From: Bacteroidaceae bacterium
GTDB lineage: Bacteria > Bacteroidota > Bacteroidia > Bacteroidales > Bacteroidaceae
Length of the DNA stretch: 64,000 nt
Direction: 5' to 3'
Assembly (NCBI GenBank): GCA_017524545.1
Contig: JAFXVN010000076.1
Location: 31,376 to 95,375, forward strand
A model generated the notes under the pieces. The model saw only the letters and a program-made list of their open reading frames with translations, was not told the origin of the DNA and did not search any database. Below, one piece after another: positions 1 through 47,007 of the stretch. The translations under genes were made by a program, and so were the position numbers. Each line of letters opens with the position of its first letter. The stretch's first letter is position 1.

Positions 1-2193
1 GGTATAGGAGAGGTTGAGGTTCGAGGTGGTAAAGGCTGGCAGAGAGCGGTCTTTGTTCTCTGTGTTGTCGAGGTATTGGCGGCTGACGAAATTAGTGTGC
101 CAAGTTGCCTCGATGCCTTTCCAATGGAAGTTGAGGAAACCATTGAGGAGTACGGATGGCGAGAAGGCCAAGGTGGAGTTGTCGTAATGGATGGTTCGCC
201 AATCGTCTTCCCAAAAGACGCTTGCTTCTTCATCGAAGTCCAGAATGCGATTCCTGCTGAGTGCGGCATTGCCTTCGATGGAGAGCCATTTTGTGATGTC
301 GACTCCTGCCGTTAGTTCAATACCCATTCGGTAGCTCTTCTTGACGTTGGTGGTCAGCTTCTCGCCGATGTCGCTCTCCATTCCTGTCTGAACGAATTGG
401 TCGTCGTAATACATGCAATACAGATTTGCTCCTGCATGCCAGTTCGAAGCCGTATAGGAGTACCCTGCTTCTGTGTCGAACACACGCTCGGCTTTGGGGG
501 CAGGATAGTGTCCGTTGTCAGTAAAGTTGTTGCGCTCTGGTTCGCGATTGGCGATGGCATGAGAGACATAAGCCCTGTGCCCGCCTTGATGCCAACTGAG
601 TCCTGCCTTGGGGTTCAGGAAGTGGTAGTGCTTGTCGATATCGAGGTAGTGCTTGTTGTAGGTGCCGTCATCCTGCTTGACAAATTTGTCGTTATATCCG
701 TCGGTACGATAGCCTACGTGACGGTACTGGAGGTCTCCCCAAGCAGTCCAGCCTTTGCCGATGCGGTAGGAGGCTTTGGCGAAGACACTATGGTCGTCCT
801 TCGTGGCATCGGAATCGTAGTAGGTGTACTTTCCGCCTTTCAGCACTTCCTTGCTTATGAAACCTTCCTTTATATAAGTAATGTAGCCGAAGTGATTGCC
901 TGTGAAGCGCTGGAGAGCCAGCCCGCCAATCACATCCCATCGCCCTTTCTTGTAGTTGGCGTTCCAAAGCAGGCCGTAGGTGTGCTGTTTCAGTCCTTTC
1001 TGCCTCACCACATCGCTCTTCATCTCCTTTCCGTCTGCCCTGAAGTAGTTGAGCCCAAACTTCTTCGGCAGCTTGTTGTTGGGACGGAACTCTTCGTAGT
1101 AGCCGTAGCCGTAGGTGTAGTGAAGCGAAGCGGTGGTGCTCCAGTGCTGGTTGATGTCCCAAGCCATCGAGAGGATGTTGTGGTTCTGCTTGAAGTTGTC
1201 TGTCGTGCGAGGCCAGAAAGAGCCGTCGCTCATGGCATAGCGTTTTGTGAGGTAGTTGCCGTTGTCGTCACGGGCGAAGTTGCCATCCTCGTCGTATGCC
1301 AGAGCCTCGTAGAGCGAGTTGAATTTGCCTAAACCTCTGTCGTAGAGGTCTTTGTAGTCCTTGATGCCAGTCAATACGCCAAAGGTGCCGTCCATGAGGG
1401 TGAGGTCGTTGTCGCCAGCCGTAACACCGTTCCAGGCCTGCCCTGTATGCTCGTAGTTGCCGATGTTCTTGTATCGAAGCGTGAATCGTGTGTCGGGCAT
1501 CCATGTGATGCCGCCATAATAGGAGCCTGAGCGTCCGTCGGTTCCATGTAGGAATCCGTCGGTTTGCGTCTGATGCCAAGCCCCGTCAATGACGAGCTGG
1601 TTCCAGAGCAGTCCCGTAGAGGCTTGCGCGCCATAGTTCATCGTATTGTAGGAGCCGTACGAGAAGTTGACTTCGCCCTGAGGCTTCAGCGAGGGTTGGG
1701 CCATGGAGAGTGCTATCGTGCCGCCAAAGGCTCCGTCGCCATTCGTGCTTGTTCCAACGCCTCTCTGCACTTGCACGCTGCCCAACAAAGCCGAATAGCT
1801 GTTCATGTTGGCCCAGAAAACGCATTGGTCTTCAGGGGAATTGAGGGGTACGCCATCCAGAGTGACATTTATGCGCGAGTCGCCAGCACCTCGGATGCGC
1901 ATATAGGTTGTGCCTGTACCCAGTCCATTCTCGCCCCAAGCCATGATGCCTGGCGTCTTTGCCAGCAGGAAGGGCAGTTCGCGACCGGTCCTGTAGTGTT
2001 CCTGCAGTTCCGCCTTCTTGATGTTTGTTACGGCGAATGGCGCATCGTCTTGAGCGCGTACAGCAGTCACCACAATTTCCTGGATACGCTCTGTTCGCAA
2101 GGAGTCGTCTGTAGTCAGCTCCTCAGCTGCGACCGTGCTTCCCATGAGGCCAAAGAGGCTCAGGGCAATCATTTTTTTTGTTTCTCTTGTCAT
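1..2193 (-). CDS. TonB-dependent receptor under TPP riboswitch, 3' end beyond the window
   Basis: Outer-membrane active transporter, probably for thiamine or a thiamine precursor, powered by TonB-ExbBD. The reading frame is open without interruption from ATG 2193 to the window edge, so the last beta-strands are missing. The N terminus has a short signal peptide (MTRETKKMIALSLFGLMGS). A TonB-box-like stretch (RIQEIVVTAVRA) and the plug domain follow (KTPGIMAWGENG, MRIRGAGDSRINVTLDGVPL), then a long aromatic-rich beta-barrel. The substrate is inferred only from the TPP riboswitch just upstream; barrel sequence alone does not show it. Long antisense ORFs over this gene are shadows. I am sure of the family and moderately sure of the substrate. 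Confidence 0.93.
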   Translation of the reverse strand, partial: MTRETKKMIALSLFGLMGSTVAAEELTTDDSLRTERIQEIVVTAVRAQDDAPFAVTNIKKAELQEHYRTGRELPFLLAKTPGIMAWGENGLGTGTTYMRIRGAGDSRINVTLDGVPLNSPEDQCVFWANMNSYSALLGSVQVQRGVGTSTNGDGAFGGTIALSMAQPSLKPQGEVNFSYGSYNTMNYGAQASTGLLWNQLVIDGAWHQTQTDGFLHGTDGRSGSYYGGITWMPDTRFTLRYKNIGNYEHTGQAWNGVTAGDNDLTLMDGTFGVLTGIKDYKDLYDRGLGKFNSLYEALAYDEDGNFARDDNGNYLTKRYAMSDGSFWPRTTDNFKQNHNILSMAWDINQHWSTTASLHYTYGYGYYEEFRPNNKLPKKFGLNYFRADGKEMKSDVVRQKGLKQHTYGLLWNANYKKGRWDVIGGLALQRFTGNHFGYITYIKEGFISKEVLKGGKYTYYDSDATKDDHSVFAKASYRIGKGWTAWGDLQYRHVGYRTDGYNDKFVKQDDGTYNKHYLDIDKHYHFLNPKAGLSWHQGGHRAYVSHAIANREPERNNFTDNGHYPAPKAERVFDTEAGYSYTASNWHAGANLYCMYYDDQFVQTGMESDIGEKLTTNVKKSYRMGIELTAGVDITKWLSIEGNAALSRNRILDFDEEASVFWEDDWRTIHYDNSTLAFSPSVLLNGFLNFHWKGIEATWHTNFVSRQYLDNTENKDRSLPAFTTSNLNLSYT

Positions 2194-2222
2194 TTTTCCT
2201 TTATTATTAAAAGTTAACAATA

Positions 2223-2336
2223 AAGGGGTGCAGGCCGGGCCTGCTCAGAAGATTCCACTTATCATCCCTACGTCGGTATTGTCCGCATCAGGTGAGAGGG
2301 TTTAATCTCAGCCCGTCACTTTGACGAGCACCCCTT
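2223..2336 (-). promoter_or_regulatory. TPP riboswitch (THI element)
   Basis: Read on the minus strand, the P1 arms AAGGGGTGCT and GCACCCCTT enclose the conserved pyrimidine-sensing core GGGCTGAGA and the pyrophosphate-side core ACCTGATGCGGACAATACCG followed by CGTAGGGA. These are the diagnostic THI-box words. An extra GC-rich hairpin (2230-2244) sits between the core and P1. The 3' end lies about 30 nt before the TonB receptor start and no T-tract terminator is seen, so control is more likely at translation initiation. Thiamine pyrophosphate is expected to repress the receptor. Confidence 0.95.
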
Positions 2337-2349
2337 GATAATTTGTGTG

Positions 2350-2357
2350 CAAAGGTA
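2350..2357 (-). promoter_or_regulatory. Bacteroidetes -7 promoter element for the riboswitch-TonB transcript
   Basis: TACCTTTG on the minus strand, matching TAnnTTTG, lies about 14 nt before the start of the TPP riboswitch. Confidence 0.7.
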
Positions 2358-2459
2358 CGACAAAAAAGTGAATAGTGAATAGTGAAAAGTGAAAAATTAT
2401 TTGTTGTTCCTTAATCTTTATTCCCAAATCCCTAATCTCTAATCCCTATTCCCTAATCC

Positions 2460-2744
2460 TTATTCCCTTTTCGGCTTCTTCGGGAACCAGCCTTTGCGGA
2501 CGCGCTCGCGTTGTTCGAAGAGTTCGAGGATGGACCAGAAGCAGGAGAAGCTGAACACGCCAAGAAGGACGGAGGCATAGATATTCTCGACGAACAGCGA
2601 GCCGATGCAGCCGGCTATGCCAAAGAGGAGGAACACCGGCCAACACTTTACGCCGAAGTGGTATTCACTCTTGATGACAATAGGATGGAAGAGCCCGATG
2701 CACAGGAAAGTCGCCAGGCCGAGTATGATGCCGTGGTAGTTCAT
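2460..2744 (-). CDS. DUF4491 family small membrane protein
   Basis: A 94-residue hydrophobic protein with about three membrane segments (residues about 5-23, 30-50 and 53-72) and a basic tail (WFPKKPKRE). It matches the DUF4491 pattern, in which GLATFLIIGLFHPIVIK-like text opens the protein. Function is unknown. The frame also has a GTG at 2753 that would overlap the stop of the upstream peptidase (GTGA), but the ATG at 2744 gives the usual family start MNYHGIILGLATF. It is the last gene of the glnS operon and is probably translationally coupled. Confidence 0.85.
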   Translation of the reverse strand: MNYHGIILGLATFLCIGLFHPIVIKSEYHFGVKCWPVFLLFGIAGCIGSLFVENIYASVLLGVFSFSCFWSILELFEQRERVRKGWFPKKPKRE

Positions 2745-2749
2745 TATGT

Positions 2750-4393
2750 TCACTTTGGCACCTTATAGAGCGCGTCGGTCTGCTTGATTATTTGACGCCT
2801 GAAGTTCTCGGGATAGCCCGGGCGAAGCACGGGACGAGGATTGCCGCCGGGGGTCTTCTCGTACTGTCCGTTCTCGTCCATACGCTTGACAGCCATATCG
2901 TTATACTTCACGATGATAAGCTGTGCCAACTGGTTCCATTCGTCCATCATCGCACTTGCCGAACGATGACTATAGGCCGAAAGGAACTTGACGGCTTCCT
3001 CCTGACTCATTGCGGCTGCCTCGTCCTCAATCTTGGGCTGTAGGGCGTTGAAGTCGGCCTCTATCCTGTCGCGAACTTTTTGCAGCTCAGGGAAGAGAAG
3101 ACTGTAGCGCAGATAGACCATATTGCTGACCCAGTTCTCCACCCAATAGGCAGAGCGCGTGGAGAAATGGAAGGCGTCGGCAGTACTCTTGTCGTAGCAT
3201 TCGGGAGCCTGCTTCGTGTTGCAATAGACAGGCGTGAAGGCTACCATGTTCGCGTCGTCGTTGGCAAACCATGTGACACCGCCGATATGATTGGGGAGCC
3301 AGGAGCGCATCTGACTGACATAGACGCAGGCCGACTGCTGCGTGCTGATGGGTCGCTCGTTGAAATACTTCACGCCATCGACCTCATAGCTCAGTGGGGT
3401 GGGGCGGTAAGGCATTTCCCAAGGACCCATGCCGATGTCCTCGGTCAGAGCCATCGGTGTGCCTTCGTAGTGGTCGCGCATCATGTCCTTGACATCCTGA
3501 ACGGAGAGCGGAGCCTTCGGCTTGACATAAAGCGGCAGGACTTGACCTTTTGTGTCGCCCATCGCGTATGGGAGGTATGGCTTCATGTCCTCGGCAGCCC
3601 ATTTGTTGAAGTAGCTCCAGATGCGTGCCTCGCAATAGCGCAGAGCACCGAAGTCAGCAGGTGCGTAAGCGTCTGCAAATGAGAACTCAGCATCCTTTCC
3701 ACTGAAGTAGCCCTTCTCCTTTGCAAAGCTGATGACATCTTTTGCGTAGAGGCAGTTGTCCATGTCCTTGAGTGGGAACTGATGGATGCGGCTTTGGTTG
3801 GCATGACCGCTGATGCAGTCGTCGGGAATGCGCACGGCAACCCATACCGTTCCCTTGCGACCCGGGCCTTTGCCTATCATGTCCATAATCCAAACCTCAT
3901 TGGGGTCGGCAATGGTGAAGCTCTCGCCTTCGCTCTCGTAGCCGTAGGTTTCGGTCAGCTCCGTCATAACCTTAATGGCTTCGCGGGCAGTTTTGGCACG
4001 CTGAAGGCAAAGCACCATGAGCGAGCCATAGTCGATGAGGCCGCTGATGGTGTCCGTCAGCTCCGTGCGTCCGCCGTAGGTCGTTTCGTGGATGGAAAGC
4101 TGAAACTCGTTCATCAAGCCAACGATGCCGTAGGTATGAGGCACTTCTGGAATCTCGCCCAGGTAGTTGCCCGACTCGTAATGATAGAGAGGATGCATCG
4201 TCCCTGCCGGATGGTCTTTGGCCGGAATGACGCGCAACGGCTCGAAGGAACCATAGTCGTCCTGGCTATAGGAAATGATGACGCTGCCGTCTTTTGAGGC
4301 TTTTTTGCCGACAACAAGGTTTGTGCAGGCCTGTAAAGTTGAAAGTTGGAAGTTGAGAGTTATCAACCCAAGGAGTATAACGAGGCGTTTCAT
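2750..4393 (-). CDS. C69 family dipeptidase (peptidase U34), secreted
   Basis: N-terminal-nucleophile cysteine dipeptidase of 547 residues, a usual length for Bacteroidales members. The signal peptide ends at LQA and the next residue is the expected catalytic cysteine (ACTNLVVGKKASKDGS), exposed by processing. Further family marks are ETYGYESEGESFTIADPNEVW and VWVAVRIPDD. It probably acts in the periplasm or as a lipoprotein-like secreted enzyme that cleaves short peptides. Its ATG overlaps the stop of the upstream TPR gene (ATGA, 4390-4393). Part of the signal peptide (about residues 12-20) is encoded by a repeated intergenic-type word at 4335-4361. Confidence 0.92.
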   Translation of the reverse strand: MKRLVILLGLITLNFQLSTLQACTNLVVGKKASKDGSVIISYSQDDYGSFEPLRVIPAKDHPAGTMHPLYHYESGNYLGEIPEVPHTYGIVGLMNEFQLSIHETTYGGRTELTDTISGLIDYGSLMVLCLQRAKTAREAIKVMTELTETYGYESEGESFTIADPNEVWIMDMIGKGPGRKGTVWVAVRIPDDCISGHANQSRIHQFPLKDMDNCLYAKDVISFAKEKGYFSGKDAEFSFADAYAPADFGALRYCEARIWSYFNKWAAEDMKPYLPYAMGDTKGQVLPLYVKPKAPLSVQDVKDMMRDHYEGTPMALTEDIGMGPWEMPYRPTPLSYEVDGVKYFNERPISTQQSACVYVSQMRSWLPNHIGGVTWFANDDANMVAFTPVYCNTKQAPECYDKSTADAFHFSTRSAYWVENWVSNMVYLRYSLLFPELQKVRDRIEADFNALQPKIEDEAAAMSQEEAVKFLSAYSHRSASAMMDEWNQLAQLIIVKYNDMAVKRMDENGQYEKTPGGNPRPVLRPGYPENFRRQIIKQTDALYKVPK

Positions 4394-39034: not shown

Positions 39035-39182
39035 CCACAGATTAAGCAGATTTATCGGATTGTGTTCAATTTGTTTCAGATTAAGCTGATTGGCTACGCC
39101 TTCGGCACATGCATATCAATCTGCTTAATCTGAAAGAAATTCATGAGTATAAAATCTGTTTAATCCGTTAAATCCGTGGTTT
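39035..39182. repeat. Dispersed ATCCGTG/AATCTGAAA repeat, copy 2
   Basis: Contains CAGATTAAGCAGATTTATCGG, inverted AATCTGCTTAATCTGAAAG and AATCCGTTAAATCCGTGG. A 25-nt stretch at 39119-39143 is the exact reverse complement of 46351-46375, so the two copies share sequence in opposite orientation. It fills the gap between the rsmI-like gene and hisS. Confidence 0.8.
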
Positions 39183-40548
39183 ATAATAATCTGTTAATTA
39201 TCTCGTTGGGGGCGAGGAGTTGCTGTTCGCCTGTTGTCATGTTCTTGAGCATGACCTTTCCTGCGGCCATTTCCGTCTCGCCTGTCATGGCGACGAAGGG
39301 TATTGCCTTTTGGTTGGCATACTGCATCTGCTTCTTCATCTTGGCGGCGTCGGGATAGATTTCGCAACGGATGCCTTGTGCGCGAAGGCTGGCAATGATG
39401 GGCAGCGAATAGGCTGTCTCTTTTTCTCCGAAGTTGATGAAGAGCACCTGTGTTGCAGTCGTGACGGCCTCGGGATAGAGGTCGAGCTGATTCAGGACAT
39501 CGTAGATGCGGTCGGCACCAAAGCTGATGCCCACACCGCTCAGCCCAGGCATACCGAAGATACCTGTAAGGTTGTCGTAGCGTCCGCCGCCTGTGATGGA
39601 ACCAATCTCCACATCGAGGGCTTTCACCTCGAAGATGCAGCCGGTGTAGTAGTTAAGGCCACGGGCCAGGGTCAGGTCGAGTTCAATATCATTTTTAATT
39701 GTTAATTGTTCATTTTTAATTGTCTTGAGCACATATTCCACTTCGTCAAGACCCTTCTGCCCTATCTCGCTGCCGGCAAGCACTTCCCGCATAGTGGCAA
39801 TCTTCTCTTGGTTCGTGCCGCTGAGGTTGATGATGGGCTGGAGCTTCTGGATGGCTTCTTCGCTGATGCCGTCCTGTCGCAGTTCCTCATTGACTGCATC
39901 AAGACCAATCTTGTCGAGCTTGTCGATGGCAACGGTGATGTCCACAATCTTGTCGGCCTCACCAATCATCTCGGCTATGCCAGACAGAATCTTGCGGTTG
40001 TTGATTTTGATGCAGACGCGGATGCCGAACTTGCGGAACACCGTGTCGATAATCTGCATCAGCTCCACTTCGCAGAGCAGCGAGTCGCTGCCAACCACGT
40101 CTGCGTCGCACTGGTAGAACTCGCGGTAGCGGCCTTTCTGCGGACGGTCGGCACGCCATACGGGTTGAATCTGGTAGCGGCGGAACGGCAGTGCCAGTTC
40201 CTCGCGGTGCTGCACGACGTAGCGTGCGAAGGGAACGGTCAGGTCGTAGCGGAGTCCCTTCTCGCAGAGCTGGGCGGCAAGGTGTCCTGTTGCGCCGGCG
40301 GCGAGGTCGTCGGTAGAGATGCCACGCAGGAAGTCGCCGCTGTTCAGTATCTTGAAGAGCAGTTTGTCGCCCTCCTCGCCGTACTTGCCCATGAGGGTGG
40401 AGAGATTCTCCATTGCCGGAGTCTCGATTTGCTCGAAGCCGTAGAGGGAATAGACTTCGCGGATGGTATTGAAGATGTAGTTGCGTCGGGCCATCTCCTG
40501 AGGACCGAAGTCGCGCGTACCCTTTGGAATGCTTGGTTTCTGTGCCAT
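39181..40548 (-). CDS. hisS: Histidine--tRNA ligase
   Basis: Class II synthetase, 455 residues. Motif 1 region [19 protein letters not shown], motif 2 [15 protein letters not shown] and [23 protein letters not shown], HisA signature [14 protein letters not shown], motif 3 [10 protein letters not shown]. The C-terminal anticodon-binding domain is complete. Residues about 275-286 ([12 protein letters not shown]) derive from an intergenic-type word (39691-39724) just before the HisA signature and look like an inserted loop. Confidence 0.97.
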
Positions 40549-40580
40549 AAATAAATGTACGATTTAGTGTTTTACGACTG

Positions 40581-40588
40581 CAAAGATA
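40581..40588 (-). promoter_or_regulatory. -7 promoter element of hisS
   Basis: TATCTTTG on the minus strand, 32 nt upstream of the hisS ATG. Confidence 0.6.
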
Positions 40589-40689
40589 CGAAGAATTGTT
40601 GGCTCTGCAATACTTTTCCTCCAAAATGTTTGGATGGTAAAGGAATGTTGTGTAACTTTGTGGCGGAATTGTGTAGTTATAACAGAATT

Positions 40690-41130
40690 ATGACAAGAGA
40701 GGATAAGGTGCGGTACTGGCTTGACATAGCCGACTATGACCTCGACACAGCCGAGGCCATGCATCAGACAGGACGCTGGCTTTATGTTGCCTTCATGTGC
40801 CATCAGGTCATTGAGAAAACGCTCAAAGCCTATTGGTGCGGCACCCTTGACGACGATCCTCTCTACACCCACAACCATAAGCGACTGGCCTCAGGCTGCG
40901 GTCTATACGAGCGAATGAGCGACAATCAGCAGCGCTTTTTGAACAGGATTACCAATTACAACATTGAAGCACGATACCCCGAAGACAAGGAAGCACTCTC
41001 TCGGGTGCTCACCAAAGACTTCTGCAGACAAATCATCAACGAAACGAAACAACTACAACTATGGATAAAAGACGAACTCTCAGCCGCGACGAGGCACTTG
41101 AACTCGTCCGCCGATACAAGCAAGTCATAA
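40690..41130 (+). CDS. HEPN domain protein of a HEPN/MNT pair
   Basis: 146 residues, all helical, matching the HEPN family: VRYWLDIADYDLDTAEAMHQ, LYVAFMCHQVIEKTLKAY, and the late ARYPEDKEA. The RX4-6H ribonuclease motif of toxic HEPN proteins is not obvious, so it may be of the non-catalytic type. The frame is open 45 codons upstream, but ATG 40690 gives the family start MTREDKVRYW. Overlaps the MNT gene by 70 nt in another frame, a typical arrangement. Confidence 0.88.
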   Translation: MTREDKVRYWLDIADYDLDTAEAMHQTGRWLYVAFMCHQVIEKTLKAYWCGTLDDDPLYTHNHKRLASGCGLYERMSDNQQRFLNRITNYNIEARYPEDKEALSRVLTKDFCRQIINETKQLQLWIKDELSAATRHLNSSADTSKS

Positions 41131-41378
41131 CTCCCCGCTTTGCTGTCGAGCCGAAGGTGATGATGTTCGGCTCCTATTCTAAGGGCTATGCCAGTGCTGA
41201 CAGTGACATCGACGTAGCTGTCATTGTGCCCTCCTACGGCAATCAGAAGTTCGAGATTGCCGAGAATCTTTGGCACGACGTCGATAAGGTAAGTTTCCTT
41301 ATCGAGCCTGTCCTTATGGCCGAAGACCGCCAATCGCCCCTCTACGACGACGTCATGCGCACTGGCGTTGCTGTGTGA
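41061..41378 (+). CDS. Minimal nucleotidyltransferase (MNT) of a HEPN/MNT pair
   Basis: 105 residues with the polymerase-beta-like motif GSYSKGYASADSDID (GSx10DxD, about residues 41-55) and a third acidic residue likely in FLIEPVLMAED. In type VII toxin-antitoxin systems MNT proteins inactivate HEPN toxins by nucleotidylation. Pairing is visible here; toxin activity is not shown. Confidence 0.9.
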   Translation: MDKRRTLSRDEALELVRRYKQVITPRFAVEPKVMMFGSYSKGYASADSDIDVAVIVPSYGNQKFEIAENLWHDVDKVSFLIEPVLMAEDRQSPLYDDVMRTGVAV

Positions 41379-41593
41379 CGGTAGCACTATTCGCGTCACC
41401 ACTGACGAAGTTTACAGGCCTGACCGTCGAGGCAATCTCTATGCTTTCCTTCTGAAGCAGTGGCCTTAGGAGGATTTGGGCAGGGATTGGATAACCCAGT
41501 GGGCACTAAGTAAGAACAAGATAAGAGAGACGAAGAAAAGAACCACGGCTTTGTACTGCTTGAATGAATATAGGGCACACACCACGGGGAACT

Positions 41594-41670
41594 TAGGCAC
41601 GTCACAAAAGTCATTTAGACACGCTACAAAACTCTTTTAGGCATGTCACAAAAGTCATTTAGGCACGCTA
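41594..41670. repeat. Tandem ~25-bp AGGCACGTCACAAAAGTCATTT repeat
   Basis: About three degenerate copies of TTAGGCACGTCACAAAAGTC alternating with TTAGACACGCTACAAAACTC. It lies in the 555-nt gene-free stretch between the MNT gene and the zinc-hook gene. Similar AGGC.CTACAAA text precedes the palindrome array at 8857. Confidence 0.8.
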
Positions 41671-41674
41671 CATA

Positions 41675-41762
41675 ATTATTTTCAAGGTTTGATAATATAT
41701 TTTCAAGGCGTGATAATATATTTTCAAAGCTTGATAATATATTTTCAAGGCTTGAAAATAGT
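41675..41762. repeat. Array of four ~23-bp palindromic units
   Basis: Four copies near TATTTTCAAGGCTTGAAAATA, several with TGATAA in place of TGAAAA, joined by TAT. Same family as 8857-8943. Read on the minus strand they would encode a repeated ALKIYYQ peptide, which is a translation artefact. Confidence 0.85.
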
Positions 41763-41906
41763 TTTTAGGCTCGCTCTTCGGAATTTTATGGGCTGCTCCT
41801 GAGGATTTGCATACAGGGAGTGCGGGAAAAGCCTCCCTGCTGTCCCCTCCCATAAAGGGAGTGAAATAAATTCTCCATTCATATCGCTTAATTCTTAAAT
41901 TCTTCG
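41763..41906. other. Gene-free stretch with a GC-rich GGGAG word
   Basis: Remaining part of the 555-nt gap. It holds AGCCTCCCTGCTGTCCCCTC followed by CATAAAGGGAG, one of the GC-rich palindromic words found elsewhere in the window, and otherwise no recognised signal apart from the promoter at 41907. Confidence 0.5.
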
Positions 41907-41914
41907 TATCTTTG
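41907..41914 (+). promoter_or_regulatory. -7 promoter element of the zinc-hook gene
   Basis: TATCTTTG, 20 nt upstream of the ATG at 41935, showing that the gene has its own transcription start. Confidence 0.65.
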
Positions 41915-41934: not shown

Positions 41935-44646
41935 ATGTATTTCTTCAAGAAAAAGGAAACGGCTCCCCAGCAACAGCCCCGAGGGGGAGCACCCAACGAG
42001 ACGCCGGAACGCCAGCAGGAGGGCATAAACAATGAAACCTCCCATCGGGGAGGTTCACAGGGCGCTGCCGCCAAGCGCGACAGCCGCATCCTGAACAGCA
42101 CGCAACTGCAACGCGTGAAGGATGCCAAGCGGTTGGCAGAGACAAAGCTGAAGGGGCTGGAAGAAAGTCTGTCACGATTGCATACCCAGCAGCAATGGCT
42201 GCGCCGATACAACGAGACGAGCATGGCACTGGAGCGCGAGAAAAAGCGGCTCTTCGAGCTGGGCAAGCAGAAGGCCATCGTCGCCAAAGAAGCGGACATG
42301 CTGGAGCGGTACGACCTCTTCGAAGGCATCCACGGCACCTACCAGAAGCTCGCGGTGGTGAGGGAACAGCTCGGCGGCGACAAGCGCGGACTGAGCCTTC
42401 TGGAGCGCGAGGCCGATGCAAACCGCCAGGAGATGACCGACCAGGAGAAGCGGCAGCGGCAGGCCAGCGACCAGCTAAAGACAAGCACTGCGGCATTTCT
42501 CGATGTCTTCGACAACGTCTGTTCTGCATATCAATTAGCAGGAGCCAACGACGCGCTCGATGCAGAGGCCGACTTCCTGACCAGACAATATAATAAGGTA
42601 AGAGAGGATGCCGAGGCGATGTCGTCCCTGGCCGCCGAAAAAGAGAAGAGCATCGAATCGCTCCAAGGCAGGCTTGAGGAGCTTCGCACCAGACGGCAGA
42701 GCATGGAGATGCACGAAAACATGATACGGCATGGCGAGGCATTGCTGTTCCGGCTGAGCGTCATGCAGGAGGTGGACAAGCACCGCATGGAGCTTCAGCA
42801 GAAGCGGCAGCAAGCCATCCGCAGGCAGAACGAGGAGAACGAGTTGCTGGGCAAAGCCTTCGCACAGTTCCAGGACATCCTTTCACAGGCAGAGACAGCC
42901 GAGGCCGAACTGAACATGCACCGTTCGTACATTCAGGGGTTGGACGGCCTGACGCTGCAGGAGCGTGCCCTCAGGCTGAAAGGCCGCCGGCAGATGCTCC
43001 ACTCCGCCCTGTCGCTCTGGAAACGCATCAGCACCGGTTACGAGAGCATAGAGGAGAAGAGCCGGCGAGTGACGGCCCTGCGTCTGCACATCCAACATCT
43101 GGCCGACAACGTGCGCCAGCTCGAAGCAGAAGCAGGCAAGGCGCAGCGCCTCTGCAAGGAGAAGGAATACACCTACCTGCTGAGCAAGGGGCAGGACATC
43201 ATACAGCTGCGTGCCGACCTGCGCGAAGGCACAGCCTGCTCCGTCTGCGGTGCGACACACCATCCATACCACAGCGACACGATGCTCGACCAGAGCAAGC
43301 TCCTCGGCGAGATGAAGACCGACTACGACCTTCTGGCATCGGAATCAAACGCCAAGCAAGGGCAGCTGGCCGAAATGCAAGCAGAGCTTGCCACAGCCCA
43401 GGGGCAGCTCATCAGCGAGGAGGAAGCGCTCAATGCCATCCGCATCCGCCAGAACGAGGACGTGGAGGAATGGAAGCTCTATGCCGAACTCGACGCGACC
43501 TTTGCCGAATGCTCCGAAAGCACGAATTTGGAGGCGCGCACAGCCCTGCTGCGACAATTCATAGAGAATGTCAGCCGCAACGCAGAGAAGGCAGAGAAGG
43601 AGCTGGAGACATTCACCTTCCACCAGAGCAGCATCGCCCGCATCAGCGAGGAGCTGCAGAAGCTGGAGCAACGGAAGAGCGAAATCAACGTCCGCCTTGG
43701 CGAACTCAACACAGGCTGTCAGGTGATCAGCCGCGAGGTGGAGCAGCTGGCCGTGCGTCTCGACGGCATCAACAAGCAGTTCACCCGCATCTACGAACAC
43801 GCCCAGCTTGTCGTCACCATCAAGGACTGGTACACGCTATGGCAGAACAACCCGGAGCAGCTTTACGAACAGATACAGAAGCTCATCAGCGACTGGTACG
43901 ACACCGAGAAGGAGATTTCAGCGAAGCAGGCTACCCTGGATGTGGAGCTGGCAAACCTCGAGGGAATGAAGATGCAGCTGCAGGCGTTAGACCGCGCCGC
44001 ATCCGTCATCACGAAACGGACGGAGGACATGGGGACACGCAAGGCGGAAAACCTCAAAGCCTATCAGCAGATGATTCCCGAACGCGACGCGAAAACCCTC
44101 TACCAGAAGCTGCTCATAGCAATGCAGTCGGCACAGGAACAATACGAAAAGGAAAGGAAACAGACAGACAGCATCCGCCACAGCGCCGACATCATGCAGG
44201 GCAGGCACGACTACTACATGGCACACATCGAAAAGCTGGAGGGGGAGCAAAAACAGCTGGGCGAGAAGCTCGACCTCTGGATGCACGCCTTCAACCTGCA
44301 GCATCCGCCGGTACAGCAGGGCGAACTGGACGAAGTCTTCGCCGACGGAAAGGACTGGAGCATGATACGCAGCCGCCTCAAGAAGATAAACACGGACACA
44401 TTGCTGTGCCAGGCGAAGGTCGATGACCTGCACAGCCGCATCATCGCCCTCGACACGGAAGACGGGCATTGCAGCCCATCGACGTCCGACATCCAAGAGG
44501 ATATTGCAGAAAGGCAGCAAGCACTTACCAAACAACGCAGCGAGACGATGATGCAGATTGCAAGGCTCGCCGTCCAGCTCGAAGACCACGAGAAAGCCCT
44601 CGCCGCCGAACGCAACTCGGCAGAACCCCAAGCGAGCCTTGCCTAA
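41935..44646 (+). CDS. SbcC-like zinc-hook coiled-coil protein without ATPase lobes
   Basis: 903 residues, predicted to be almost entirely coiled coil. Midway (residues about 428-445) is LREGTACSVCGATHHPY, the CxxC zinc hook and flanks of SbcC/Rad50. The arms on each side (about 46-430 and 450-890) also read like SbcC arms, e.g. QQWLRRYNETSMALEREKKR. Yet no Walker A precedes the first arm and no signature or Walker B follows the second: the N terminus is a Pro/Gln/Gly-rich tail of about 45 residues and the C terminus ends EPQASLA. Its own promoter lies 20 nt upstream, so it is not simply a 5'-truncated gene. No SbcD nuclease is adjacent. Possible roles are a structural tether or a partner of a full SbcC; function unknown. 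Confidence 0.8.
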   Translation: MYFFKKKETAPQQQPRGGAPNETPERQQEGINNETSHRGGSQGAAAKRDSRILNSTQLQRVKDAKRLAETKLKGLEESLSRLHTQQQWLRRYNETSMALEREKKRLFELGKQKAIVAKEADMLERYDLFEGIHGTYQKLAVVREQLGGDKRGLSLLEREADANRQEMTDQEKRQRQASDQLKTSTAAFLDVFDNVCSAYQLAGANDALDAEADFLTRQYNKVREDAEAMSSLAAEKEKSIESLQGRLEELRTRRQSMEMHENMIRHGEALLFRLSVMQEVDKHRMELQQKRQQAIRRQNEENELLGKAFAQFQDILSQAETAEAELNMHRSYIQGLDGLTLQERALRLKGRRQMLHSALSLWKRISTGYESIEEKSRRVTALRLHIQHLADNVRQLEAEAGKAQRLCKEKEYTYLLSKGQDIIQLRADLREGTACSVCGATHHPYHSDTMLDQSKLLGEMKTDYDLLASESNAKQGQLAEMQAELATAQGQLISEEEALNAIRIRQNEDVEEWKLYAELDATFAECSESTNLEARTALLRQFIENVSRNAEKAEKELETFTFHQSSIARISEELQKLEQRKSEINVRLGELNTGCQVISREVEQLAVRLDGINKQFTRIYEHAQLVVTIKDWYTLWQNNPEQLYEQIQKLISDWYDTEKEISAKQATLDVELANLEGMKMQLQALDRAASVITKRTEDMGTRKAENLKAYQQMIPERDAKTLYQKLLIAMQSAQEQYEKERKQTDSIRHSADIMQGRHDYYMAHIEKLEGEQKQLGEKLDLWMHAFNLQHPPVQQGELDEVFADGKDWSMIRSRLKKINTDTLLCQAKVDDLHSRIIALDTEDGHCSPSTSDIQEDIAERQQALTKQRSETMMQIARLAVQLEDHEKALAAERNSAEPQASLA

Positions 44647-44769: not shown

Positions 44770-45570
44770 ATGAAACGTACGCTCATCTACATCGTAGTAT
44801 CAGCCCTTGTCGTTGTGCTGGCCATAGTCATCTACAAGGCAACCAATTGCACGGAGGAGAATGCGTGGCGGAACTTTAATCCCGGAGATGTTGAGTTCCA
44901 CGACGAAGCACCAGATTCGGAAGGCTCAAGAATCTACCACAGCATCATCCCCGACCCTGCGCCCTACATTCAGGAGAACGCCCGCCGCGTCCTGCAGACA
45001 CTCTATTGGGGACCGAAAGACCCCAATGTGCCTCACCTGAAGCGCATCATCTACACCATCAAGGACTACAACGGCATCAGCGAGAAGTACGGCGAAGGAG
45101 ACACTATAGGCATCCGATACAGCACAAAATGGATTGAACGCTGCTTCGAAGGCAAGGACACCCTGCGCCTCGACTATGAGACACGCGGCGTGCTCTACCA
45201 CGAGCTGACCCATGCCTATCAGCTCTCGCCCGAAGGCTGCGGCAGTTACGACAACCAGAGCGAGTACTGGCTCTTTATCGAAGGCTTGGCAGATGCCGTC
45301 CGCGTTTCTTGCGGCTGCTTCGACCAGGACTTCAAGAGCAAGGACCGCACTCGCGGCGACTCTTGGCGCAAGGGCTACCGCGTGACGGGCTACTTCCTCT
45401 ACTGGCTCTCGCTCAACAAGGATAAGGACTTCATCCGCAAGTTCAACCGCTCGGCCGTAGAACTCAAGCCCTGGTCGTGGGACAAAGCCATGAAGCACAT
45501 CCTCGGCGACAAACCCGAGAACACGACAGATGCCCTTTGGGAGGAATACATGAAGGCCGTCGGTGACTAA
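44770..45570 (+). CDS. Basic secretory protein family metallopeptidase-like protein
   Basis: 266 residues with an N-terminal membrane anchor or signal (LIYIVVSALVVVLAIVIYKA). The mature part matches the plant-type basic secretory protein domain: HELTHAYQ (HExxH, about residue 140), WLFIEGLADAVRV with the third ligand region, and GYRVTGYFLYWLS. Presumably a zinc-dependent envelope peptidase; activity has rarely been tested for this family. Precedes queC by 43 nt, perhaps co-transcribed without functional relation. Confidence 0.88.
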   Translation: MKRTLIYIVVSALVVVLAIVIYKATNCTEENAWRNFNPGDVEFHDEAPDSEGSRIYHSIIPDPAPYIQENARRVLQTLYWGPKDPNVPHLKRIIYTIKDYNGISEKYGEGDTIGIRYSTKWIERCFEGKDTLRLDYETRGVLYHELTHAYQLSPEGCGSYDNQSEYWLFIEGLADAVRVSCGCFDQDFKSKDRTRGDSWRKGYRVTGYFLYWLSLNKDKDFIRKFNRSAVELKPWSWDKAMKHILGDKPENTTDALWEEYMKAVGD

Positions 45571-45613
45571 TCAATCGTCAAATTGTTAAATCGTTAAATT
45601 GTCAAATTACGCG

Positions 45614-46276
45614 ATGACCAGCGCACTTGTAGTTCTTTCAGGCGGACAAGACTCCACGACCTGTCTCTATTGGGCACTCAAGCATTTCGACAAGGTTCAG
45701 GCACTCAGCTTCCGCTATGGGCAAAGGCATGTGAAGGAGGTTGATATTGCCAAGCAGCTTTGCGCCGAAGCCGGAGTACCCTGGGAATGCATGGACATCA
45801 GTTTCATCCAGCAGCTCAGTCCTGACTGCAGCCTGACCAATCCCGACCTCGACATAGAAGCAGAAAAGAAGGAAGGCGCCCCCTACCCCACGACCTTCGT
45901 GCCCGGCCGCAACCTCTTTTTCATCTCCGTTGCAGCCATCTATGCACGCAACCACGGCATCTACGATGTAATTACAGGCGTCGGGCAGGCAGACTTCAGC
46001 GGCTATCCCGACTGTCGCGACGGCTTCATCAAGAGCCTGAACACGACACTCAACCTGGCAATGGACGAGCAGTTCCGCCTGCACACCCCCCTCATGTGGC
46101 TCGACAAGCAGCAGACATGGGCATTGGCAGACGAGCTTGGCGTGCTCGACACCGTCCGCTATCGCACCCTCACCTGCTACAACGGCATCGTGGGCGACGG
46201 CTGCGGACATTGCCCCTCCTGCAAGCTCCGCCGCGAGGGACTGGAGAAGTACCTAACATCTAAAAACACGAAATAA
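45614..46276 (+). CDS. queC: 7-cyano-7-deazaguanine synthase
   Basis: ATP-dependent conversion of 7-carboxy-7-deazaguanine to preQ0 in queuosine synthesis. 220 residues. PP-loop [17 protein letters not shown] at the N terminus, [26 protein letters not shown], and the zinc-binding C-terminal cysteines GHCPSCKLR with [16 protein letters not shown] 45614 is chosen over the in-frame TTG at 45599. Next gene is queF, same strand. Confidence 0.96.
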
Positions 46277-46309
46277 ACGAATCTGATTATTCTGCTTTCG
46301 AGAATTAAA

Positions 46310-46472
46310 CAAAACAACGAATTACACGGATTACACAGAATAAAGTGTCCTGAATTTCTTTCAGATTAAGCAGATGTCCGTCTGTGCCAATCCGTTAAAT
46401 CCGTGACAAATCTGCGAAATGGCAAAGCTTCCTGGCAATAAAATCCGTGTAATCCGTGCAATCAGTGGTAAA
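46310..46472. repeat. Dispersed ATCCGTG/AATCTGAAA repeat, copy 3
   Basis: Fills most of the 263-nt gap between queC and queF: ACGGATTACACAG, AATCCGTTAAATCCGTGAC, AATCCGTGTAATCCGTGC. Positions 46351-46375 are the exact reverse complement of 39119-39143. Confidence 0.8.
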
Positions 46473-46539
46473 AGAAGCTCTAAATTTGATTAGTGCCTTT
46501 TGTATTTTTCGATGTTAAAATATAAATATAAGTCTTTCA

Positions 46540-47007
46540 ATGTTTATGACAGATAGAGAGAAAGAAGGATTGAAATCCCTTGGCAAGAAGAGTGAGATTC
46601 CGCAGGACTATAACCCCGACGTGCTGGAGGCCTTCGAGAACAAGCACCCGGAGAATGACTACTGGGTACGATTCAACTGCCCAGAGTTCACGGCTTTGTG
46701 TCCCATCACAGGGCAGCCCGACTTTGCAGAGATACGCATCAACTACCTCCCCGACAAGCGGATGGTGGAGAGCAAGAGCCTCAAGCTCTATCTCTTCAGT
46801 TTCCGCAATCACGGCAGCTTCCACGAAGACTGTGTCAACATCATTATGAAAGACCTCATCCGCCTCATGGAACCAAAGTACATCGAGGTGACTGGCATCT
46901 TTGTCCCCCGAGGCGGCATCAGCATCTACCCCTACGCCAACTACGGCAAGCCCGGCACAAAGTACGAGGAGATGGCACAATACCGCCTCCTGCACCACGA
47001 CATCTAA
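46540..47007 (+). CDS. queF: NADPH-dependent preQ0 reductase
   Basis: Reduces 7-cyano-7-deazaguanine (preQ0) to preQ1. 155 residues, the short single-domain (YkvM-like) form. Catalytic Cys in [16 protein letters not shown], QueF signature [16 protein letters not shown], and catalytic Asp region FHEDCVN. The start could be ATG 46546. queD and queE are not in the window; no preQ1 riboswitch was seen. Confidence 0.96.

Follow-up and report, generated by a model that had tools for sequence, protein, structure and literature searches.

The window analysed here is a stretch of 64,000 nucleotides from a Bacteroidaceae genome (G000; 3.6 Mb, 92% complete) that holds one copy of a gene for a headless, SbcC-derived zinc-hook coiled-coil protein. 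The gene occupies an exact open reading frame on the forward strand (41935-44646; 903 aa plus stop). From its start, the protein consists of an M-x-[FLI]-F-x-[RKH] motif (MYFFKKKET, 41935-41961); a Pro/Gln-rich linker (41962-42084), poorly conserved in an alignment of 21 headless proteins, with a W[WF]-containing module at this place in some relatives; an N-terminal coiled-coil arm of about residues 52-415 (42088-43179); a zinc hook at residues 421-450 (43195-43284), with CSVCGATHHPY at residues 435-445, in the middle of the protein, and the CxxC encoded at 43237-43248; and a C-terminal coiled-coil arm of about residues 451-886 (43285-44592) that contains DWYxxW and LDLWMxxFNxxHPPVQ elements. 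By column identities, conservation that is confined to headless forms and not shared by full-length relatives is seen at residues 298-313 (42826-42873), which belong to a mid-arm node, and largely also at residues 588-597 (LGELNTGCQV, 43696-43725). All these features lie on the forward strand. On the reverse strand, hisS (39181-40548) is a frequent divergent neighbour, used here as a position marker and not as part of the system. The two genes flanking the headless gene match NTP_transf_2 and BSP. Between hisS and the headless gene lie a HEPN and an MNT gene (40555-41378), resembling a type VII toxin-antitoxin pair, and upstream of the headless gene are two short arrays of direct repeats, spaced at 22 and 21 nt (41571-41781). 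A BSP-family peptidase gene and two further genes, which we read as queC and a QueF-like gene, follow at 44770-47007, and close relatives have them after the headless gene too; among the distant loci opened, most of which extend only about 1.5 kb downstream, no peptidase gene was seen.

The gene had been credited with its own promoter 20 nt upstream of the start codon, and comparison with orthologues bore this out. The box TAnnTTTG (TATCTTTG, 41907-41914, forward strand), which we take to be a Bacteroidetes-type -7 box, was kept in position: of 19 sequences (the window and 18 orthologues; 80 nt searched), 16 have it 18-24 nt ahead of the start codon, against an expectation of 0.8 in mononucleotide shuffles. 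At the N-terminus, 76 loci were taken, 13 were skipped and 12 were dropped as repeats, leaving 51 distinct headless N-termini. The M-x-[FLI]-F-x-[RKH] start was present in 36 of them, against a background of 42 in 744 long ORFs of all loci, headless genes included. A membrane-anchor role for the MxFFxK motif was set aside as a mere guess, the motif being absent from the remaining 15 N-termini. The pattern of a W-rich module occurred in 14 of the 51. In many distant headless proteins (L020, L021, L025, L113, L142 and others) the coil is preceded by a module with a W[WF] pair together with P[ED]E, which is absent from the subclade of the window protein.

In order to place the protein, a profile of 21 headless sequences was aligned with a profile of 12 full-length Bacteroidales SbcCs. 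The two matched with hhalign at E 6.2e-38 over 816 columns, from column 218, where the N-terminal arm becomes colinear with that of SbcC, to column 1052 of 1236, where the C-terminal arm ceases to be so. The conserved SbcC head residues stop at about column 202 and resume at about column 1084. Since the aligned stretch excludes them, the protein is an SbcC minus both heads and not a coiled coil with a chance CxxC, in line with the Rad50/SbcC zinc hook between two long coiled-coil arms that the first-pass annotation had described. The borders of the lobe models were taken from the same profile alignment, so that it is the conserved head residues, and not an independent domain call, that show the protein stopping at the lobe borders. 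A profile of the arms matched full SbcCs of sister genera at 263-480 bits. Searches of the headless ORF detected no ATPase lobe with Pfam (XhlA at E 0.017) or NCBIfam, in which the coiled-coil matches to SMC, ASRP and Rad50 models were far under cut-off, and no ATPase domain with PADLOC. An N-lobe model (Walker A, Q-loop) did not match within the ORF, and a C-lobe model (signature, Walker B, His switch) matched neither the ORF nor the window. When the whole window was searched in six frames with both SbcC lobe models, no lobe or remnant was found beside the gene, and the sole N-lobe trace (6.6 bits) was about 6 kb downstream of it. Both lobes are thus missing, as had been claimed, and these searches gave no sign of a sequencing error hiding lobes nearby. 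A truncated or mis-sequenced normal sbcC was rejected on the same lack of remnants beside the gene and on the occurrence of the headless form across the genus (see below). Among solved structures, the best matches (E 0.5 with the single sequence, 0.016 with the profile) were taken for unrelated coiled coils. Taken at the level of sequence, these results indicated that the window protein is a decapitated descendant of a lineage-specific SbcC, with two arms and a hook and with both ATPase lobes gone.

A separate SbcC and SbcD, which the first-pass annotation had proposed to look for in the proteome, were not found in the source genome. TIGR00618 gave a single match there, of 18 bits, to an ORF that we take to be UvrA, and this model was therefore dropped as an SbcC detector in favour of a 14-sequence C-lobe profile, which had no match in the source genome at E 0.001. 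Nor did a full SbcC from the same family, used as query, match anything there. The best TIGR00619 match for SbcD scored 26 bits against a cut-off of 77.65, and a hidden, decayed SbcD was discounted, the divergent SbcD of locus L130 matching nothing when used as query. Across the genus, an SbcC C-lobe of at least 200 bits was present in seven of 71 genomes (G002, G015, G029, G043, G050, G060 and G436), all of which also carry the headless gene, and was not detected at that score in the other 64, the source genome included. Other genomes gave weak C-lobe scores of about 19-27 bits, in short ORFs (229-310 aa) that probably encode different ABC proteins. SbcD exceeded its cut-off in six of 61 genus genomes. 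In a second genus, g186, C-lobes of at least 200 bits were found in seven of the 14 listed genomes with the headless gene. Given this rarity of SbcC C-lobes and SbcD in the genus, the headless protein occurs there mostly without SbcCD.

The headless gene was matched in 66 of 71 listed genus genomes (57 of 61 including the source genome, and nine of ten further listed ones); the five genomes without a match are 62-87% complete. The 14 listed g186 genomes also carry it. One copy (G035) is broken in frame, and those of G004 and G016 contain a single stop within the match. The dN/dS values were 0.04-0.18 (10 of 11 pairs gave a value, several of them with saturated dS), and the gene is, by this measure, under purifying selection. 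In the first set of relatives, 28 of 42 distinct contigs had a divergent hisS next to the gene (33 of 51 loci if the nine contigs present twice are counted both times); this linkage extended to relatives at 37% identity and to all five g186 loci opened, while no hisS was seen on six contigs that reach 6 kb upstream of the gene. Because the headless form is present in most genus genomes, and often at the hisS-linked site, it is not a truncation confined to the source genome, with intact sbcC at the syntenic site in relatives; the occurrence of the same form at the same position had been a point to check since the first-pass annotation. Other than hisS, no conserved neighbour was seen in the loci opened. 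These loci are annotated as Bacteroidaceae, Prevotellaceae or Bacteroidales, several are from ruminant samples, and most records are metagenome assemblies. No relatives of the protein were found in phages, plasmids or viral contigs, the viral scan consisting of two peptide patterns for which 54 stretches matched and none was confirmed; a mobile-element or phage origin was rejected on these grounds. An order-wide search of 247 genomes gave matches in 22, the source genome among them. Of the other 21, 19 corresponded to the hook region of frames of about 834-1267 aa, like ordinary SbcC, and the remaining two, elsewhere in the coil, look like noise.

Both hook cysteines, G439, H443 and P444 did not vary among 30 headless sequences that have the hook (one pair of these sequences being identical throughout), and since these residues are invariant, zinc binding is probably under selection. 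CxxCG was present in 72 of the 74 headless ORFs from fetched loci, contig duplicates included, the exceptions being L109 and L110. Hookless orthologues within the genus (G031, G034 and G340) are all short; in the G340 protein, as in that of G531 from genus g180, some 210-240 model columns around the hook are missing. The hookless forms (L109, 1657-3492; L110, 2106-3950; L144 from G531, 1363-3348; and L143, G340 C4) have open frames of 615-671 aa and keep the proximal arms only; the three from the genus adjoin hisS. The existence of such orthologues means that dimerisation through the hook cannot be essential everywhere. Positions conserved in headless proteins and not in full-length relatives were located where the coil begins (R66, L67, T70 and K71), at 298-313, at 541-597 and next to the hook at 457-474. 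Residues 298-313 and 588-597 probably lie roughly opposite each other in the antiparallel coil, as judged from the presumed pairing of the arms, and this apposition suggests a partner site or a joint.

The origin of the headless form was traced in the family, in which 99 of 251 genomes gave any match. In 28 genomes of genera g178, g180 and g190 the same arms are held within a full-length SbcC, with an SbcD motif beside it in 22 of the 27 read. The 28th of these proteins (L148, from G478) stood outside the arm and motif counts because a longer antisense frame hid its ORF; Walker A, signature, Walker B, His-switch and hook patterns are present in it. In a tree of the arms, the headless proteins of the genus and of g186 formed one clade (100/100), sister to the g180 SbcC with 94/93, which is under the star threshold of the tool, and in a larger tree the SbcCs of six coexisting genus members fell outside the arm clade. 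Both trees were computed under LG+G4 from rows of unequal composition. A headless protein from g180 (L134, from G523) grouped inside the g180 SbcC, and the AU test rejected its union with the main headless clade (p 2e-54); the test did not reject such a union for L144, which lacks both heads and hook (p 0.076), so that two losses are the minimum. The placement of the G523 protein within the g180 SbcC indicated that, on the tree, heads have been lost at least twice.

Five ATPase motifs were all kept in 22 of the 27 full-length relatives. In the other five the heads were decayed, L130, L160 and L161 keeping none of the motifs, L131 one and L132 three, and all five retained the arms and the CxxCG. 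The mean ratio of head to arm identity between decayed and intact relatives was 1.32-1.64, against 2.17 for intact pairs (n = 231 pairs, minimum 1.05), and by this comparison the heads of the decayed SbcCs are less constrained. Next to L130 and L131, the SbcDs are without the His of motif I and other residues, motif III was not recognisable in the SbcD beside L160, and all motifs were found in that beside L132; the contig of L161 begins near the gene and yielded no SbcD reading. L130 (g178) and L131 (g180; its genome is a single contig) can be described as pseudo-SbcCD pairs, which are kept at full length with both the ATPase motifs and the nuclease catalytic residues gone. The dead-head SbcCs form separate branches on the tree and may represent steps towards head loss.

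Compared with SbcC/Rad50 of the SbcCD and Mre11-Rad50 complexes, the headless protein has homologous, colinear arms and a zinc hook, with the CxxC at the apex between them, and its nearest relatives found are the SbcCs of the sister genera g180 and g178. It differs in having no N-lobe, C-lobe, Walker A, signature, Walker B or neighbouring sbcD, and in its new N-terminal tail and frequent position next to hisS. The pseudo-SbcCs (L130, L131, L132, L160 and L161), described here, share the arms and hook and have decayed ATPase motifs, but they are still full length (open frames of 1195-1250 aa) and four of the five stand beside sbcD, decayed in L130 and L131. An engineered headless Bacillus subtilis SMC (residues 160-1037) likewise has SMC arms without heads and, according to PMC4725763, still compacts DNA; it is a laboratory construct with an SMC hinge, whereas the headless protein is natural and has a zinc hook. 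The archaeal ASRPs (coalescin ClsN and Sph) combine a coiled coil and a zinc hook (PMC9389158) but keep Walker A and B, unlike the headless protein, whose ASRP NCBIfam match scored 26.1 bits against a cut-off of 300. Two further Rad50-like proteins have a hook, LmuB of Lamassu in many of its members (PMC10586767) and RloC (PMC2610378). Both retain ATPase domains, although PMC10586767 states that the Walker B of LmuB generally has an E-to-Q change, suggesting low or no ATP hydrolysis, and they act with or as effectors (LmuA and a tRNase domain, respectively). By contrast, the headless protein has no effector domain or partner in view: its PADLOC match to LmuB scored 21.9 bits (residues 277-613), its ORF has no ATPase lobes, and neither of its two flanking genes, which match NTP_transf_2 and BSP, is an LmuA.

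Several explanations of the headless form were considered. The first-pass annotation had suggested that it binds or titrates a complete SbcC, and regulation of SbcCD through mixed hooks could draw on the shared hook and on the coexistence of SbcC in seven of 71 genus and seven of 14 listed g186 genomes. We regard this as very unlikely, given the 64 genus genomes, the source included, with no C-lobe of at least 200 bits, the detection of SbcD over cut-off in just six of 61, and the position of the six coexisting SbcCs outside the arm clade. A split SbcC, with its lobes supplied by separate genes and assembled in trans, would fit arms that stop about where the lobes would begin; the source genome yielded no C-lobe and no head match, however, as did most genus genomes, and an assembly gap, possible in one genome (completeness is 92% for the source, and the rest are almost all drafts), is unlikely across most of the genus. 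It therefore seems highly improbable. Hardly any weight can be given to a decaying relic or an assembly fault, to which the broken frame of G035 and the single stops of G004 and G016 would point but against which stand the dN/dS values, the conserved promoter and the matches in 66 of 71 listed genus genomes. A defence role together with the HEPN/MNT genes, also raised earlier, starts from their adjacency in the window, from matches of the MNT protein to the MntA model (below cut-off) and to PADLOC PDC-S09, and from weak PADLOC matches of the headless protein to JetC and LmuB. Against it, the pair matched none of 51 relatives' loci and none of 76 other loci (many with about 1.5 kb of upstream flank), so that it is probably a local insertion, and relatives in phages, plasmids or viral contigs are lacking; we consider this role scarcely credible.

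A more serious competitor, which we still judge rather unlikely, is a scaffold in which the proximal coil binds a partner protein once recruited by SbcC, the hook only aiding avidity and hence being dispensable. Hookless headless orthologues that keep the proximal arms argue against an essential hook and favour this explanation, as do the mid-arm node (about 298-313 with 541-597) and the coil start, both conserved in headless and not in full-length relatives, and the retention of arms by dead-head SbcCs. On the other side, nearly all headless ORFs from fetched loci (72 of 74) have the hook, and hisS is the sole conserved neighbour in the loci opened.

We consider, with moderate confidence, that the best explanation is an ATP-independent zinc-hook rod descended from SbcC that would serve as a passive tether, spacer or scaffold, which keeps the zinc-dimerised tether of the first-pass annotation as the favoured proposal. 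This passive, zinc-clasped rod is favoured by the invariant hook, the headless-specific conserved sites, the N-terminal tails and the precedents from Rad50 and SMC. According to PMC6969161, the hook of Rad50 can serve for constitutive dimerisation, and the compaction of DNA by the headless SMC construct (PMC4725763) implies that SMC-type arms without heads can act. The retained rod and clasp suggest that, in the absence of ATPase heads, these parts have a job of their own. Each chain would fold back into one long antiparallel coiled coil of roughly 50 nm, at about 365 residues per arm and 0.15 nm per residue, and two chains would clasp each other through one zinc ion on four cysteines, giving an ATP-free rod of about 100 nm. 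The ends that formerly bore heads would now carry a short hydrophobic-basic tail (MxFFxK and a flexible linker) in most members, or a W-rich module in some, and these tails and the conserved mid-arm node may bind putative partners. Such a rod would be a passive tether, spacer or scaffold and not an ATP-driven clamp or a nuclease regulator. The protein is mildly acidic overall, with a pI of 5.7 and a net positive charge confined to the first 100 residues, which gives no support here for DNA binding by the arms; their acidity speaks against plain DNA binding.

Among the open-access papers searched, we found no description of a natural ATPase-less SbcC/Rad50. The function of Rad50/SMC arms free of heads has been approached with constructs, such as that of PMC4725763. 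Here the separation is natural, the heads having been lost while arms and hook stay under selection in most of the genus. As intact, dead-headed, headless, and headless and hookless relatives coexist today, an ATP-independent role becomes directly testable. The finding is also a warning for annotation, since a hook-bearing "SbcC-like" protein may have neither an ATPase nor a nuclease partner. More tentatively, it is quite conceivable, if short of probable, that on two or more occasions, and perhaps through dead-head pseudo-SbcCD stages, a DNA-repair ATPase of Bacteroidales became an ATP-independent zinc-hook rod without motors, and that these proteins form a structural "ghost SMC" class in which arms and hook, released from their part in DNA-end processing, would keep cell structures or DNA together.
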